Shown: positions 3,499-53,676 of the stretch, in pieces
Numbering within the stretch: the first letter of the stretch is position 1
Layout of the letters: each line of letters starts with the position of its first letter
Assembly: GCA_019637335.1 (NCBI GenBank)
Contig: JAHBVV010000009.1
Span: forward strand, 124,001 to 188,000
Reading direction: 5' to 3'
DNA length: 64,000 nucleotides
Source of the DNA: Candidatus Hydrogenedentota bacterium
Lineage (GTDB): Bacteria > Hydrogenedentota > Hydrogenedentia > Hydrogenedentales > JAEUWI01
Notes under the pieces: generated by a model
What the model was told of the DNA's origin: nothing
Databases searched by the model: none
The model's input: only the letters and a program-made list of their open reading frames with translations
Position numbers and translations under genes: made by a program

Positions 3499-6400
3499 CT
3501 ACTTCACCGCCCCAACATAAGCCACCGCAGGCACTTCCAGCGCGTCCGCCGCCTGCGCCGGGAAGCGATCCACGAGCACGCGGTCCCCATCAATGCGGTC
3601 TATCGGAAAACCGGTCCAGTCTCCGTCGATGCGCACCCGGGCGTAGGCCCGCGCGGGACCGGGGGAGAAGCGCCAATCGGCGGGCGGGGCAGCCTCCGCC
3701 CGGTATGCGTCCGCCGATACGTTCGCCACGCCGGTGCGCCATACAGGCGTCCTGTCCGAGATCGCCACACCATCCACCTCCAGCAGCGCCGCTTCGACGG
3801 CAAGACACTGCGCCGCGCCTTTCGCGGGGCGGAAGACCAGCGCGAAGCGCCCCTGAAAGTGGATGCCGTCCACTTCGCCCGTTTCCGCGAAATCGTTGAG
3901 GGCATAATATGTACCGGCGTCCGTGTCGATCCGGAGCGCGGTCGCCTCGGGCCCCGCATTGGTTGCGATGCGCCGCACCGCCGTAACCGGGAACGGCTGG
4001 TCGCCTTTCCGGGAGGCATGCACCGCCAGAAACCGGCTCGCAAGCCCCGCGTCGCCCCGGCGCACGGCGTCCACATAACGCACCCGGCGCCCGGTTTCGT
4101 CGTGCGTGCGCTGGCCCGGGCCGTTCGCCGCTTCCACCGCGTCGCACGGCGCGGCCATCCACAGGCGGTAGGCGGCGTCCGCCTGCGACCAGGTGGCATC
4201 CCACGCATCGCCCTCGGGCGCGCCCGACCGCACATCGCGGAGCCCGTAGATGTCCGCCTCGGCCAGACTTGCGCCGACGTCGGGCAGCGGCGCCTCCGGG
4301 GGCAGGGAGACGCCCCGGAACTCGAGCCGCCCGTCCGCCCCATCGCTCGCGGCGACTTCACTGTAGGCGCGGAAGCGGTGCTCCGAGCCGCCCTGAACCG
4401 AAAACAGGTCGATTGCGAAGGTCGCGTGCGCGCCGTGTTTGACCAGCGCGACCCGCCGCCGGTACTCGCCGCATTGGGAGTAGGCCGTCGAGCTCGCCTC
4501 CACGACCGACGCCAGGGGAGAAGTAACCATAAACTCAAATGAGGTCGTGCGTGCGCCGAACTCCTGCTCCGCGCCGTCCACAATCACCAGGTTGTGACTG
4601 GACGTAGCCTTGATCCATCGATTGACCGGCATATCGCCGAGGTAGCCATGATCGCCTACGATGGTCTGGTCCCCATCGGCGTAAAAGAGCGCCAGGTTGT
4701 CATAGTGCCGGTGCCCGCCAGGTGGGTTGAAGGCCAGCGTGAGGGTGTCGGTATCCGCGCCCGCGCCATGGCGCAGGATCGCCGTCTTCCACGCGGGAAA
4801 GTAGATTTCATTCAAAGGCAGCGGCTTCTCCTCGTTCAATTCCCCGTCGGAGAGATTGAATACGGCGTATTCGTCGCCGGTGCGCCGGTGGATATTGGGG
4901 AGCACCCCGGCGTAAATTTCGGGATAGTGCCGGGCGCCCATTTGAAGGATGTGCGCCGAGGGCTTCGAGTTCAGGCGCGTATCGCTCAGGGGCAGGTAGG
5001 CGCCGTCCGGCAGTACGGTGTCCAGCACGGCGCGGTACATCATGCGGAGCTGGGAATCCTGCGCATAAAGGTCGACCGTGCCGCCGCGGCCCGGAAAGCC
5101 GTCGGGCCAGGTGTAGCCATGGAGCGACTCCGGCACGATGAGCAGTTGGGCCAGGTACATGTTGGTATACGAGGGGCTCTCGGTGCTGAGGCCGTCATAA
5201 AGGAAGGACGCGTCCCGCACCCGCTCATAGCCCCGCAGCGCCACGTCGGCGTATTCCGGGATGCCCAGGCACTTGCCCAGCGCCGCCATGGCGTTGTAGA
5301 TGCGCGGGGCCTTGTTGTTCTTCTCGTCGGCTCTTCCCGGCCCGCCGATGTAGGGCTCCGCGCCCATGGTCCACTCCAGAAAGAGGTCCCGAACCACCCG
5401 ATCCCGCGAGGCGTCGTCCCAGATCGGGTTTCCGTCGGCGTCGCGCGCATTGGCCGTGAAATCATAGGCCTGCACCACGCCCGTCAGCCCGCTCACCGAG
5501 TCCGTGCTCGGGTGGAAGCGCCCCGCGCCCCAATAATTCTGGAGCATGCGCGCCTTTTCCACCGTATCCTTCGCATAGGCCCCTTCGGAGAGGTGGCGCT
5601 TCCATTCGATGGGCAGTTCGCGGTCGTGCCACGCCGCGTAGAGCGGATCGCAGTCCGCGTAGGTGTCCCAATAGTCCCGGTAGGGCCATTGCCGGTAGCA
5701 CACGGCCAGACGCACGAGGATATCCCGCGCCGCCACCGCGTAGCGCGGCTCCCCGGTGAACAGATACGCAATTCCCAGCGATTGCACCGCATCGCGCATG
5801 AACGACACCTTACGCTCGCGGATAATGCCCGTGAAGCTGTTGTGGATGGGATAACCCACCCAGTGCCACGCCAGCTTTCCGCTCCGGTCGTCCGGGTTCG
5901 CCTGCTCCGCGGGGTTCAGGTAGTAGCGCACCTCGTGGCCCGTCCGCGGCAGGCGCAACACCTCCGTCTCGGGGTACGCCTCGTTCGGGAAGACCGTCCC
6001 ACAGGCGCGGCAGCTGAACTGCTCCGGGTTGCGGTAATTCCAGCCCACGAGGGGATCGCCAACGCCCTCCTGGCTCTTCTCGCCCACGCACGCCGGGCAG
6101 GTGAAGCCGTAGGCGTGGGAGGGGGCCTCCAGCGGGATCATCTGCTCGATCCAGCCCGCCGGCATGCCAGCCACTTCATCCGCCCGGGCCACCTGGCCGG
6201 CGAGCCAATTCCGCGCCCACTCGTGGTTCGCCACGTTCTCCTTCGCGCGCGCGATCGCGTCCGCGCTGTAGTAGGCGGGGTGCGCGGGCCGCGCCCGGGC
6301 GATCAGTTCGTCCTTGCGCGCCTCGATCATCGCGCGGAACTCACGCTCCGCCTCCGACACCCCGGCTTCCTGCCAGGGCATCAGCCCCGCGCCGCGCACC

Positions 6401-49213: not shown

Positions 49214-49990
49214 TTAGATCTGCGAATAGGGGAGGGGCCGGAGGATACGGCTGTGGATGTTCGAGACCGTATCCTTGTACTGCGGGTCCGCGCTCAGCGC
49301 CTTCCACTTGTCGTTCGCGCCAAACGCCGCCCAGCTCGCCTCGCGGTCCGCGAGATCGTCGAACACGAGCATGTACGTCAAGTTCGGGAGGCGCGACCCG
49401 ATCAGCGCTTCGCCAAAGAACACGGGGGTGAGGCCCGTCTCCCGGAATATCGCGATTTCGCCGCCCTCGTTGAACATCTCGATCTTCTTGATGGCGGCCT
49501 TCTCGCTGTGGCTCTCGTAGATCCTCAACTCGAAAATGCGTTCCTTCCTCTCCGGAACTTCCAGCGCCGGCATCCCGCTGAACGAAACCAGCAGGCTGCT
49601 CTCCTGCCGGTAGTACCCCGGCCCCGGCAGCGCCGCGTCCACAAAGCCCGCGCCCGCGCGCAGGTGCTCGGCGTCGGCGGCCAGGGCGCGGTTGGCCGTG
49701 GCCGCGGATTCCAGGCTGGCGTGCGGCAAGAGCACCTCCACCGCCGTCCATTCCCCGCCGAAGACCCCCGTAAACACGCCCACCGGCCCGATACCCAGCC
49801 GGTTCCACGCGGGAATCGCGGCCTGCTCCAGGTAGTCATGAATCGCGCCGGAACGCCCGCCCGGGAGCAGGTGGTAGAGCCGGTGTTCGTAGTACTGTCG
49901 GGCCATCGGTTTCTCCTGGGCCGCGCTTTCGGCCGTGGCAAGGGCCGCGCCGGCCAACGCCGCGCCGGCGAGGAATTCACGTCGTTCCAT
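49214..49990 (-). CDS. NIPSNAP family protein with Tat-like signal
   Basis: The 258-residue protein starts at the ATG at 49990 with a twin-arginine-like leader (MERREFLAGAALAGAALATA). The first half has YYEHRLYHLLPGGRSGAIHD then YLEQAAIPAW and the second repeats the ferredoxin-like NIPSNAP unit: FELRIYESHSEKAAIKKIEM, ETGLTPVFFGEALIGSRLPN and LTYMLVFDDLADREASWAAF. Bacterial NIPSNAP proteins have no settled function; many secreted ones occur in sugar-degrading Planctomycetes-like genomes. It appears to be monocistronic and ends against a palindromic repeat. Confidence 0.85.
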   Translation of the reverse strand: MERREFLAGAALAGAALATAESAAQEKPMARQYYEHRLYHLLPGGRSGAIHDYLEQAAIPAWNRLGIGPVGVFTGVFGGEWTAVEVLLPHASLESAATANRALAADAEHLRAGAGFVDAALPGPGYYRQESSLLVSFSGMPALEVPERKERIFELRIYESHSEKAAIKKIEMFNEGGEIAIFRETGLTPVFFGEALIGSRLPNLTYMLVFDDLADREASWAAFGANDKWKALSADPQYKDTVSNIHSRILRPLPYSQI

Positions 49991-50026
49991 GGGGTAGCCT
50001 TTCCACAAGCGGGCGGGGCGCCCGGT

Positions 50027-50467
50027 TTATTGCCGCTGTTGGTCCGCAATCTCCACGCGGCGCACCTGGACCATCAGCCGTTTCACCACGTAGTAGCCGC
50101 AGCACAGCGCGATGATAAGCGCGGCAATACTGAAATTCATCATCGGATCGATTTCACTGTAGTCGATGATGATCACCTTCCGCGCCACGGCGATAATCGC
50201 CACAAGCAGCACAACTTCCACGTAGATCGTGTTGTTCTCGACATAAATCCGGATCGTCTCAAAAAGCTCCAGCCCGATGACCACCATCAGGTAGAAGCCA
50301 AAGATCTCGAGCATGTTGTCGATATCCAGCAGCAGAAACGGCGGCGCCACGATCTGTTGATACATGATGACCCCCAGCTCGACCGTCGAAATGATGATCG
50401 TGATCATCATCATGGCGAGCAGCGAAAGCACCACACTGCGCTCAAGCAGCCGAATAAACTCAATCAT
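50027..50467 (-). CDS. PsiE-like (phosphate-starvation-inducible E family) membrane protein
   Basis: The ATG at 50467 gives 146 residues with four hydrophobic helices: VVLSLLAMMMITIIISTVEL, MLEIFGFYLMVVIGLELFET, EVVLLVAIIAVARKVIII and MMNFSIAALIIALCCGYYVV. The segment FETIRIYVENNTIYVEVVLL then VAIIAVARKVIIID is typical of the PsiE family. The function is unknown; E. coli PsiE is induced by phosphate starvation. The upstream region has no obvious Pho box. It lies 36 bp upstream of the NIPSNAP gene on the same strand and may be co-transcribed with it, while it is divergent from the pseudokinase gene. Confidence 0.72.
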   Translation of the reverse strand: MIEFIRLLERSVVLSLLAMMMITIIISTVELGVIMYQQIVAPPFLLLDIDNMLEIFGFYLMVVIGLELFETIRIYVENNTIYVEVVLLVAIIAVARKVIIIDYSEIDPMMNFSIAALIIALCCGYYVVKRLMVQVRRVEIADQQRQ

Positions 50468-50600
50468 GGCCTCAGTTACCCCTTCTGTGTCGTTCGGTCC
50501 CCCGCAACCCCGCGCGCTACGCGGGTCCCGCGTAGTGTAGCATACATTCATCCCGCGAATCGGGCCGTGTTATACTGCCGCCATTGGCAGGAGCAACCCC

Positions 50601-51692
50601 ATGCGCGAGGATCAGGACAAGACGCCACCCGAATCCGGCGCCCCCGCGCCCGGCTGGTCGGACATCCCCACCCGCGGGCTTGAGCCGGACAGCGCCCCGC
50701 CCGCGCCCCGCCGCACCTTTGACCCCGCCCTCGCCGAAACCGAACCGCCCACGATCTTCGACGACGCCGCGCCCCGCGCTCCGCGGGCGTTGCGGCTCGG
50801 CCTCGGTGGCCCCCCGCGCGAACTGCCTCCCGGATACATCATCGACGAGCGCTTCGAGGTGGTCCGCCGCCTCGGCGCCGGCAGCACCGGCACGGTCTAC
50901 CTCGTGAACGACTTGCGCCTCAAGGATCGCAAGGCCCTCAAGCTCATGCACCCGCCCCTCGGCGACCGCGAGGCCGCCGCCCGGCGCTTCATATCCGAAA
51001 TCAAGACCCTCCAGCAGCTCAGCCATGAGAACATCATCCGCGTCTACGACTACGGGCAGACCGAAGAGGGCGGGCGCTCGTTTTTCACCATGGAATATAT
51101 CGACGGCGTCAGCCTCGCCGACCTCCTCAAGAAAAAGGGCGGGCGCCTGCCACTCGATCGCGCTGCCGCGCTCATGCAGCAGATCCTCGAGGCCCTCGCC
51201 TGCGCCCACGCCCAGATGGCCCACCGCAACCTCAAGCCTGTGAATATCATGGTCCGGCCCACCGGGCGCGCGGTCCTGCTCAACTTCGGCGTCTTCACCT
51301 CCGCCAGCAGCGCCGGCCTCGCCCAGCCGACCGCCCCCGCGCTCCCCTCGCACTACCTCGCCCCCGAACAGCGCGAAAACCCCGATTGCGCCGACGCCCG
51401 CAGCGACATCTACGCCGCCGGCGCCATCTTCTACCAGATGATCACCGGCCAGGTCCCCCTCGCCGATGCGCTACCGCCCTCGCGCGTCATGCACGGCATC
51501 CCCCGCCGCGCCGACAAGGCCGTCATGAAAGCCCTCGCCGAGCGCCCCGAAGATCGCCACCCCACCTGCCAGGCCATGATCGCCGCCATCAACCGCGCCC
51601 TGACACCCGGCCCCCCCATCGCGCGCATCGCGGCCATCGTGTTCGTACTCATCGCTCTCGCCGTGGGCGCAAGTGTGCTCTGGTGGTGGTAG
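50601..51692 (+). CDS. Membrane-anchored Ser/Thr pseudokinase
   Basis: The 363-residue protein follows GGCAGGAG at proper spacing. After an 80-residue Pro-rich leader, a Hanks-type kinase domain runs from about 85 to 335. Present are the Gly loop LGAGSTGTVYLV (91-102), the ATP-binding Lys114 in KALKLM, Glu133 in SEIKTLQQL, LAPEQ at 253-257 and Asp269 in DARSDIYAAG. Missing are the catalytic Asp, since HRD reads HRN (208-210), and the magnesium Asp, since DFG reads NFG (228-230). One C-terminal helix (IARIAAIVFVLIALAVGASV) anchors it with the kinase fold in the cytoplasm. It is therefore predicted to bind partners or nucleotide without transferring phosphate. It is divergent from the PsiE-like gene and convergent with the Septu-like pair. 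Confidence 0.9.
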   Translation: MREDQDKTPPESGAPAPGWSDIPTRGLEPDSAPPAPRRTFDPALAETEPPTIFDDAAPRAPRALRLGLGGPPRELPPGYIIDERFEVVRRLGAGSTGTVYLVNDLRLKDRKALKLMHPPLGDREAAARRFISEIKTLQQLSHENIIRVYDYGQTEEGGRSFFTMEYIDGVSLADLLKKKGGRLPLDRAAALMQQILEALACAHAQMAHRNLKPVNIMVRPTGRAVLLNFGVFTSASSAGLAQPTAPALPSHYLAPEQRENPDCADARSDIYAAGAIFYQMITGQVPLADALPPSRVMHGIPRRADKAVMKALAERPEDRHPTCQAMIAAINRALTPGPPIARIAAIVFVLIALAVGASVLWWW

Positions 51693-51717: not shown

Positions 51718-52341
51718 CTATCCGTCGAACAGGGATTGAATTGTGGTATGAAAAGGAGAGTAATCGCCGTTTGGGTCTGGCAGAAGGTATCTTTCTACAA
51801 AATTGAGCAGGTCTGCCTCTGTTAATGCCGCGTCCAGGAACGGCTCAATGGCGCCCATGCGCATGCTGTTCAGTTTCGGTATTCCGAGTCCGAGGCGCCG
51901 GATGGTCGTTTTCGCGCCCTCGTCCCCGTCGTCTGCGGGCCTGATCTCTCCGTTGCCCAGGAAAGCGAACCGCGCTTCGCATCCGGAATCGAGGGGCGAC
52001 ACCAGAAGATCCGGGTCATGCCAATCTCCCTTGAGATTTCCGCAGTGGCGGGGCTCGCCCGGGCACAACCGGTCCTGGCACGAGCAAAGCATATTCGTAA
52101 AGTCGAGACCATCGACGCTGCCGTCGCACTGTGGGACGAGATGCTCGATATGCCGGTCGCCCTCGGTCAAGCGGCGCTCACAGTAGCAGCATATGGATCC
52201 CTGCTCCCGCAATAGTGCTTCCAGGAGCGCAGCCTTTTCCTCCCCCCGAAGCGCGTCGCAGGTCGGTTTCCAATTGTCATTGGACAGCGCTTTCCATGCC
52301 GCCAATTCCGGCGGCTCTTGCCCCTTTTGGATGAACTTCAC
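51718..52341 (-). CDS. HNH nuclease, PtuB-like (TIGR02646 type)
   Basis: The 207-residue protein has a zinc-supported HNH motif: ICCYCERRLTEGDRHIEHLV, with Cys51 and Cys54, His64 and His67, then GLDFTNMLCSCQDRLCPGEP, with Asn83 and further cysteines, and CGNLKGDWHDPDLLV. The C-terminal half has TTIRRLGLGIPKLNSMR, shared with PtuB nucleases of the Septu antiphage system and of retron effectors. Its ATG overlaps the stop of the upstream ATPase gene by 4 bp, so the two are co-translated. It should cut nucleic acid once released or activated by its ATPase partner. The assignment to Septu is by motif and gene order only. Confidence 0.82.
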   Translation of the reverse strand: MKFIQKGQEPPELAAWKALSNDNWKPTCDALRGEEKAALLEALLREQGSICCYCERRLTEGDRHIEHLVPQCDGSVDGLDFTNMLCSCQDRLCPGEPRHCGNLKGDWHDPDLLVSPLDSGCEARFAFLGNGEIRPADDGDEGAKTTIRRLGLGIPKLNSMRMGAIEPFLDAALTEADLLNFVERYLLPDPNGDYSPFHTTIQSLFDG

Positions 52342-53627
52342 TTGCCAATGAGCTCCATCCGCTTAATTAGCACGCCGGCTTTCACCAGGTCAGAATCTTC
52401 ACCGATTTCACTTTTGAGTTTTTTGATTTCACTTTTGGCACCCTCAAGCTTGTTCTGATCTATGAGCGCGTAGATTTCAGTTAGTCGAGCGGCGATCTCG
52501 GTTGGACGGGTGGTTCCCAACCCCATGAGGTCTTCCAGTACTCGATCCGCCGTCTTGCCGTAGTGATCGTGCGCTCTGCGTAACTCCAGGCCCCGCTTCC
52601 CGCGCGTTAGCAGAAACAAGTAGTCATCAGGCCTTACGTGCGTGATTACTTGCGGAGAGTGGGTGGTAAGGAGAAACTGGCAATTTGGAAAAGTCTCGCG
52701 CAACTTCGGAATGACCTCGCGCTGCCATTCCGGGTGTAGGTGAAGGTCGATTTCATCTATAAGCACGATACCGGCTCCCTCTAAAGGGTTCTTCAGCGCT
52801 GGACTGGCGATGGATAGGCGGCGGGCCAGATCGCCAATCATGGCAAAGAGGCATTTCTCGCCATTCGACATCTGCTCGACGCGAAGCTTCTGGCCCTGTA
52901 GATCGACCTCCATCCGCAACGGATCGCGCTTCACCGAAATGCCGGTTATAGAGGGCAGGAACTTCGAAATTGCCCGGCGTACCGCATCGAGTTGTGGGTC
53001 CGATTGAAACCCCGCCGCATCGGCCCGGCTTTCGTTCTCCAGGTCCTCGCGATTGCGGTACCACTCAAAGAATGAGCGGAAACTCGTCCCGCCCAACAGC
53101 GCTTCGTCGTAGGCTTCGAGTAGATCAAAATTGTGCGCCGTTCGTATTCTGAGCGGGATATCCATCACGACACGGTTTACGGGATAATAAACCAGCACCG
53201 GAATATTGCAGAAGCCGCCGGTTTCCCCGATGTTGTGCCGGACTTCGTCCGCCCAGGTGTCCAGCTGACAGAAGTCGCTTTTCAACGTCGGATGATGGGG
53301 TTCCTCCTTCGCATTGCGGCCCCGCCGCGCCTGGACGAGACGCCACTCCAAGGTATTCTCCCCATCACGTCCTGGCGCCTGGCATACCAACTCGAGGTGG
53401 GCATAGGCTTTGTCGTTTAGAATATCGTTTTCGGGGAGTTCGTTTCCCGTCGCATCGGCGGACTGAATACGCGCGATCACCCACGAGAGCATCAGCGCGG
53501 CGGCATCGAGAACGGTGGTCTTGCCCGCGCCATTTATGCCGACAAAGACATTCAGATTCGGATCGAGGTCTATTTTTGCATGTCGGGCGCTTCGATAGTG
53601 GTTGAACTCAAGGGTTGAGATTTTCAT
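52338..53627 (-). CDS. AAA/SMC-like ATPase, PtuA-like
   Basis: The ATG at 53627 gives 429 residues with an ABC/SMC-type ATPase split by a helical insert. Walker A is GINGAGKTT (30-38), the signature loop is QMSNGEK (252-258), Walker B is GIVLIDEIDLHLHPEWQ (286-302), and the switch His323 is in FLLTTHSPQVITH. The N-terminal MKISTLEFNHYRSARHAKID is the usual start of such overcoming-lysogenization-type ATPases. A 50-residue C-terminal helical tail (IKKLKSEIGEDSDLVKAGVL) may contact the nuclease. PtuA proteins regulate PtuB in Septu defence. Codon and base use look less GC-rich than in neighbouring genes. It is the first gene of a two-gene operon behind a palindromic promoter region. Confidence 0.85.
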   Translation of the reverse strand: MKISTLEFNHYRSARHAKIDLDPNLNVFVGINGAGKTTVLDAAALMLSWVIARIQSADATGNELPENDILNDKAYAHLELVCQAPGRDGENTLEWRLVQARRGRNAKEEPHHPTLKSDFCQLDTWADEVRHNIGETGGFCNIPVLVYYPVNRVVMDIPLRIRTAHNFDLLEAYDEALLGGTSFRSFFEWYRNREDLENESRADAAGFQSDPQLDAVRRAISKFLPSITGISVKRDPLRMEVDLQGQKLRVEQMSNGEKCLFAMIGDLARRLSIASPALKNPLEGAGIVLIDEIDLHLHPEWQREVIPKLRETFPNCQFLLTTHSPQVITHVRPDDYLFLLTRGKRGLELRRAHDHYGKTADRVLEDLMGLGTTRPTEIAARLTEIYALIDQNKLEGAKSEIKKLKSEIGEDSDLVKAGVLIKRMELIGK

Positions 53628-53676
53628 GCCGAAATCCTGCCTCTTTTGCAAGCACACGACCCTGCGTCACGGCCAC

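Follow-up and report, generated by a model that had tools for sequence, protein, structure and literature searches.

A genus-restricted family of predicted membrane-anchored pseudokinases in Candidatus Hydrogenedentota, sister to an intact Hanks-type kinase

A protein with a kinase fold is considered, by bioinformatic definition, to be a pseudokinase if at least one of three residues is missing: the beta-3 lysine, the aspartate of the HRD motif, or the aspartate of the DFG motif (PMC12599244). A 2025 review of bacterial pseudokinases covers ActPs1-3, GLW, CP1, DYD, and DLHK (PMC12599244). Those bacterial pseudokinases whose role is understood, EssB/YukC and MviN, are membrane proteins, and EssB/YukC serves as a scaffold (PMC12599244). 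In ActPs2, a mainly actinobacterial family, the HRD aspartate is replaced by asparagine, and a C-terminal transmembrane region is common, but the beta-3 lysine has become arginine, DFG is mostly deleted, and the activation loop carries a long insert. ActPs3 (MviN) has all three catalytic motifs degraded along with a deletion in the activation loop, while DYD and DLHK retain HRD and/or DFG and are altered instead in the ATP motif (PMC12599244). Two eukaryotic pseudokinases are known to activate other kinases: HER3, in which HRD has become HRN, has a tight hold on ATP and switches on its partners, while STRAD-alpha, whose ATP binding is independent of cations, does the same for LKB1 (PMC4718504). 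Pseudokinases with activity have also been documented (PMC4718504, PMC12599244). Among active bacterial kinases, back-to-back dimers of PknB have been proposed to act allosterically, and YabT of Bacillus subtilis is a DNA-activated Hanks kinase that has no receptor domain and is anchored solely by a C-terminal transmembrane helix (PMC6333020).

The window considered here, the whole 64,000-nucleotide stretch of Candidatus Hydrogenedentota DNA that was analysed, contains at 50601-51692 (+ strand; ATG at 50601, stop at 51690-51692) a gene whose 363-aa product combines a PknB-type Hanks kinase fold with a predicted C-terminal transmembrane helix. The match to Pfam Pkinase (PF00069, E = 7e-34) spans the whole domain (aa 84-335; 50850-51605, +), and the AlphaFold2 model (mean pLDDT 75.8) has the bilobal shape of a kinase, with low confidence in the N-terminal tail (within aa 10-71) and in the activation loop (230-248). 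By both structure and sequence, the best match is M. tuberculosis PknB (PDB 1mru and 2fum; E = 1e-37, about 32% identity, TM-score about 0.8-0.87 when normalised to the target). The terminal helix (aa 340-362; 51618-51686, +) is modelled with high confidence within a hydrophobic sequence, and all orthologs likewise end in a hydrophobic C-terminus. The Pfam match and the predicted helix bear out an earlier, sequence-only reading of the gene as encoding a membrane-anchored kinase-fold protein. Since only about one residue lies beyond the helix, the protein has no extracytoplasmic domain for sensing, such as the membrane sensor that the same reading tentatively proposed might be expected to use.

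Both catalytic aspartates have been replaced by asparagine, as that reading maintained. The HRD motif (51222-51230, +) reads HRN, with N210 encoded by AAC at 51228-51230 in the context AHRNLKPVN, and the DFG motif (51282-51290, +) reads NFG, with N228 encoded by AAC at 51282-51284 in the context LLNFG. Still present are the Gly loop GAGSTG (92-97), the VAIK-type beta-3 ATP lysine K114 (50940-50942, +), the alpha-C glutamate E133, the catalytic-loop asparagine N215, the APE motif (254-256), D269 of the F-helix, and R319. The claim that the rest of the domain is conserved holds for K114, E133, N215, and APE but not for the activation segment, which is degenerate and lacks residues that are invariant in the active sisters described below. 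With both the HRD and the DFG aspartates missing, the protein falls within the bioinformatic definition of a pseudokinase, an assignment well supported by its motifs, and we infer that it carries out no canonical phosphotransfer. The kinases of the source genome were surveyed through its 20 best kinase loci. In an alignment of 68 kinase domains, taken from the source genome, its relatives, and named outgroups, asparagine at the DFG position occurs in four, namely the pseudokinase and its three orthologs within the genus. The only other domain among the 68 without the HRD aspartate comes from another family of the order (G038; L057, 287-2389, -). It reads HGN, has an intact DFG, has glycine in place of the alpha-C glutamate, and is fused to what looks by eye to be a domain like formylglycine-generating enzyme; apparently it is an independent pseudokinase.

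The described pseudokinase families do not accommodate this protein. It shares with ActPs2 the asparagine in HRD and the C-terminal anchor, but it retains K114, has a substituted rather than a deleted DFG, and carries no insert. In contrast to MviN, neither the ATP lysine nor the greater part of the Gly loop has been lost. It is the opposite of DYD and DLHK, since it has kept the ATP lysine while the HRD and DFG aspartates are missing. ActPs1, GLW, and CP1 diverge in all three canonical motifs, whereas here the beta-3 lysine and the alpha-C glutamate are intact (for these three, the distinction was drawn from family descriptions rather than from profiles). A pattern in which the lysine is kept, both aspartates give way to polar residues, and nothing is deleted belongs to no family as described in the review, which makes no mention of Hydrogenedentota (PMC12599244). 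Nor does the protein fit amongst the active kinases it resembles: it differs from the PknB/StkP family in its missing aspartates, its degenerate activation segment, and its lack of PASTA or other extracytoplasmic sensor domains, and from YabT, whose architecture it shares, in that YabT is active. By its sequence it is a new pseudokinase family, restricted to one genus.

That restriction is evident from the distribution of the gene. When 60 related genomes were searched, a single ortholog turned up in every one of the other three species of the genus (E = 4e-111, 5e-95, and 1e-88; 48-54% identity to the protein in the window), all three full-length with a similar tail. Their motifs read HRH/NFG (G001), SQN/NFG (G002), and YRN/NVG (G003), so the protein is conserved as a pseudokinase in all four species: the HRD aspartate is missing from each (N, H, N, and N), and asparagine occupies the DFG position in each. 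As a pair, HRN/NFG is not strictly preserved: the asparagine at DFG is invariant but the HRD triplet varies. Across 68 phylum genomes, a profile search detected no comparable protein (E <= 1e-90) beyond the genus; it is absent from the other 64. Among the matches in a contig collection, two are orthologs from the same genus (L064 and L065), the remaining matches being kinases of the HRD/DFG type with 26-35% identity, and no match was found in viral contigs.

The closest relative of the pseudokinase is an intact HRD/DFG kinase (the G000:C7 type, 44% identity). In the phylogenetic tree, the four pseudokinases form one clade (support 100/100), and kinases of this type, 38-44% identical to the pseudokinase, form the sister clade (support 99/98). 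Besides HRD and DFG, the sister has kept the GT of the activation segment, and it has neither the C-terminal transmembrane helix nor the conserved tail motif discussed below. It is found intact in G000 (the source genome), G001, and G002 (L002, L053, and L054) and as a fragment at a contig edge, with DFG, in G003, and at this level of identity (67-71%) it was not found in the three other genomes of the family that were searched. Its gene is not linked to that of the pseudokinase. Because all four species share a single clade of pseudokinases together with traces of the sister, the history is most simply read from the sequences as one duplication and one inactivation, both before the genus diversified.

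Judged by its codons, the inactivated copy is clearly under purifying selection, though weaker than that on the sister. Pairwise NG86 comparisons of the kinase domain (245 codons) give dN of 0.32-0.41, dS of 1.07-2.22, and dN/dS from about 0.15-0.17 up to 0.30, ratios that are approximate since dS exceeds 1 and nears saturation. (A GY codon model in IQ-TREE inflated branch lengths, and so the estimate of selection is taken from the pairwise ratios.) For the intact sister in the same species, dN is 0.14-0.17, about half as high. The residues held constant across the four pseudokinases are K114, E133, N215, N228, G230, and the blocks DLRLK..K.LKLMHP and SFFTME. Drift is seen instead in the HRD triplet, in the activation segment, and at the catalytic-loop lysine, where changes to Thr or Asn occur. 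Sequencing error as the source of the double asparagine change is excluded by the orthologs and by dN/dS.

The N-terminal tail (aa 1-77; 50601-50831, +) is predicted from its low pLDDT to be disordered and is mostly unconserved: the four orthologs agree throughout at nine of its 77 positions, versus 96 of the 258 in the kinase domain. Six of those nine lie in the single conserved block of the tail, EPxTIFD (aa 48-54; 50742-50762, +), which is invariant in the four pseudokinases except at its third position and is absent from the tails of the active sisters. The block matches T-x-x-D, the pattern bound by Rad53 FHA1 according to the title of reference B20 in PMC3146460, and the four genomes of the genus each carry 8-15 FHA domains. 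Perhaps T51 is phosphorylated by the active kinase and read by one of the cell's FHA proteins, although T-x-x-D is a short motif.

Upstream of the pseudokinase gene is a divergent gene encoding a PsiE family membrane protein (50027-50551, -), an arrangement found also in G001, and beyond it one encoding a NIPSNAP family protein (49214-50008, -), which is close to the pseudokinase in G001 and G002 too and so marks a conserved locus. In G003, the contig ends at the upstream side of the ortholog. In G002, two genes separate NIPSNAP from the pseudokinase (L051, 1633-6066, -), which appear by eye to encode a HAMP protein with a SpoIIE-like phosphatase domain (4342-6066) and a Kef/NhaP-like antiporter (1633-2949). 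In G001 and G003, the gene directly downstream of the ortholog seems by eye to fuse a methyltransferase-like domain to an RNase D-like 3'-5' exonuclease (L050, 10435-11502; L052, 1704-2825). It was considered as a conserved partner and rejected, as its counterpart in the source genome sits on another contig (C4).

Downstream, 25 bases separate the stop codon of the pseudokinase from the end of the gene encoding the HNH nuclease PtuB (51718-52341, -; PADLOC E = 1.6e-77), which is followed by the gene encoding the ATPase PtuA (52338-53657, -; PADLOC E = 2.7e-148), a Septu-type anti-phage pair. This closeness had been taken to tie the pseudokinase to a defence-like operon, and it might suggest a component or regulator of Septu. 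However, the strands converge, and no PtuA or PtuB homolog lies beside the orthologs in G001, G002, and G003; the pair adjoins the pseudokinase in the source genome only, without the conserved linkage to be expected of a Septu component. Septu is not known to require a kinase. The link to defence is thus one of position only, and a role in Septu is extremely improbable.

What purpose might the inactive protein serve? The reading that we favour, and to which we would give about even credence, is that this pseudokinase, tethered to the membrane, binds active Hanks kinases, among them probably the sister, and modulates them with no phosphotransfer of its own. The sequences show that a gene encoding a PknB-type kinase was duplicated before the four species of the genus separated. 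One copy has remained a soluble HRD/DFG kinase. The other, which has a predicted membrane anchor at its C-terminus, is without the catalytic base and the magnesium-binding aspartate and has been maintained by purifying selection. The pseudokinase would dock active Hanks kinases at the membrane, most likely the sister, through the N-lobe interface of PknB-type kinases and modulate its partner allosterically, much as HER3 and STRAD do. It might bind nucleotide without Mg2+, stabilising its fold. In favour of this reading are the loss of both aspartates while K114, E133, N215, and the fold were kept, the double loss common to all four species, their single clade beside the intact kinase, the low dN/dS, the intact sister in three of the species and its fragment in the fourth, the near-invariance of EPxTIFD within a drifting tail in genomes that carry 8-15 FHA domains each, and the precedents of HER3 and STRAD-alpha. 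The likeness to these two concerns only how they work: descent from an active kinase, a nucleotide pocket that was kept, and a partner activated allosterically (PMC4718504). They are eukaryotic, their interaction with a partner has been shown whereas here it is inferred, and HER3, unlike the Hydrogenedentota protein, keeps the DFG aspartate.

The evidence on the interface is permissive only. L107 and D150 of the pseudokinase align with L33 and D76 of PknB, the residues mutated in the entries titled PknB L33D and D76A (the L33 column was located by comparing 3f61, an L33D/V222D double mutant, with wild type). Leucine and aspartate are found at these positions in all four pseudokinases and all three full-length sisters, but also in 27 of the 68 kinases overall; their retention is compatible with an N-lobe interface and not specific to the pair. 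Other considerations weigh against this reading. The sister gene is unlinked, and co-occurrence over four species is weak evidence, guaranteed in part by shared descent. The twofold higher dN also fits relaxed constraint, and with dS above 1 the dN/dS ratios are approximate. More specifically, the dead, membrane-anchored copy might recruit the soluble, live copy and switch it allosterically, with the threonine of the tail acting as a phospho-switch for FHA proteins, but this we put forward tentatively, as rather doubtful in its entirety.

Perhaps the protein does not act on kinases at all. It could be a membrane scaffold whose kinase fold, like that of EssB/YukC or MviN, offers other proteins a place to dock; its clients may be the neighbouring membrane proteins or others of the envelope. 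The C-terminal anchor and the degenerate activation segment would suit such a role, as would the presence of the PsiE and NIPSNAP genes nearby in G001 too. No neighbour, however, has been shown to be common to all four species, and the protein, unlike EssB and MviN, has kept the ATP lysine, the alpha-C glutamate, N215, and nearly all of the Gly loop, a sign that its nucleotide pocket may still be of use. A scaffold of this kind is possible, on balance unlikely. The retained pocket raises a different prospect, that of an atypical enzyme with ATP bound, capable of weak Mg2+-free phosphorylation (by analogy with CASK or with the autophosphorylation of HER3) or of some other transfer, such as AMPylation or glutamylation. 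K114, E133, N215, G230, and the asparagine at the DFG position are indeed invariant in the four orthologs. Yet the catalytic loop drifts from species to species (HRN, HRH, SQN, YRN, with Thr or Asn also appearing in place of the lysine), and the activation segment no longer has the residues on which the active sisters all agree, unlike a site kept for its chemistry. We regard an atypical enzyme as improbable.

A decaying gene, or an isolated loss-of-function allele, would account for the raised dN and the degenerate activation segment. But the reading frame is open and full-length in four species, N228 and the tail motif are invariant, and dN/dS is well below 1. The refuting case named by the sequence-only reading was just such an isolated decayed allele amongst HRD/DFG homologs; the nearest paralog does have HRD/DFG, yet every ortholog is degenerate. 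Decay is largely refuted and very improbable, and the selective retention which that reading had supposed is upheld by the double loss in four of four species, the clade of single origin, and the low ratios.

Bacterial pseudokinases are numerous, but a function is known for few, and finding one further family is a moderate surprise. In this instance, one genus contains both the dead kinase and the living one closest to it, and the order in which motifs were lost can be read. The tail and the anchor offer clear handles, making the reason for keeping a dead kinase directly testable. If the pseudokinase does work through a kinase partner, then it would be a bacterial counterpart of HER3/STRAD signalling, one that arose from a single duplication inside a genus.
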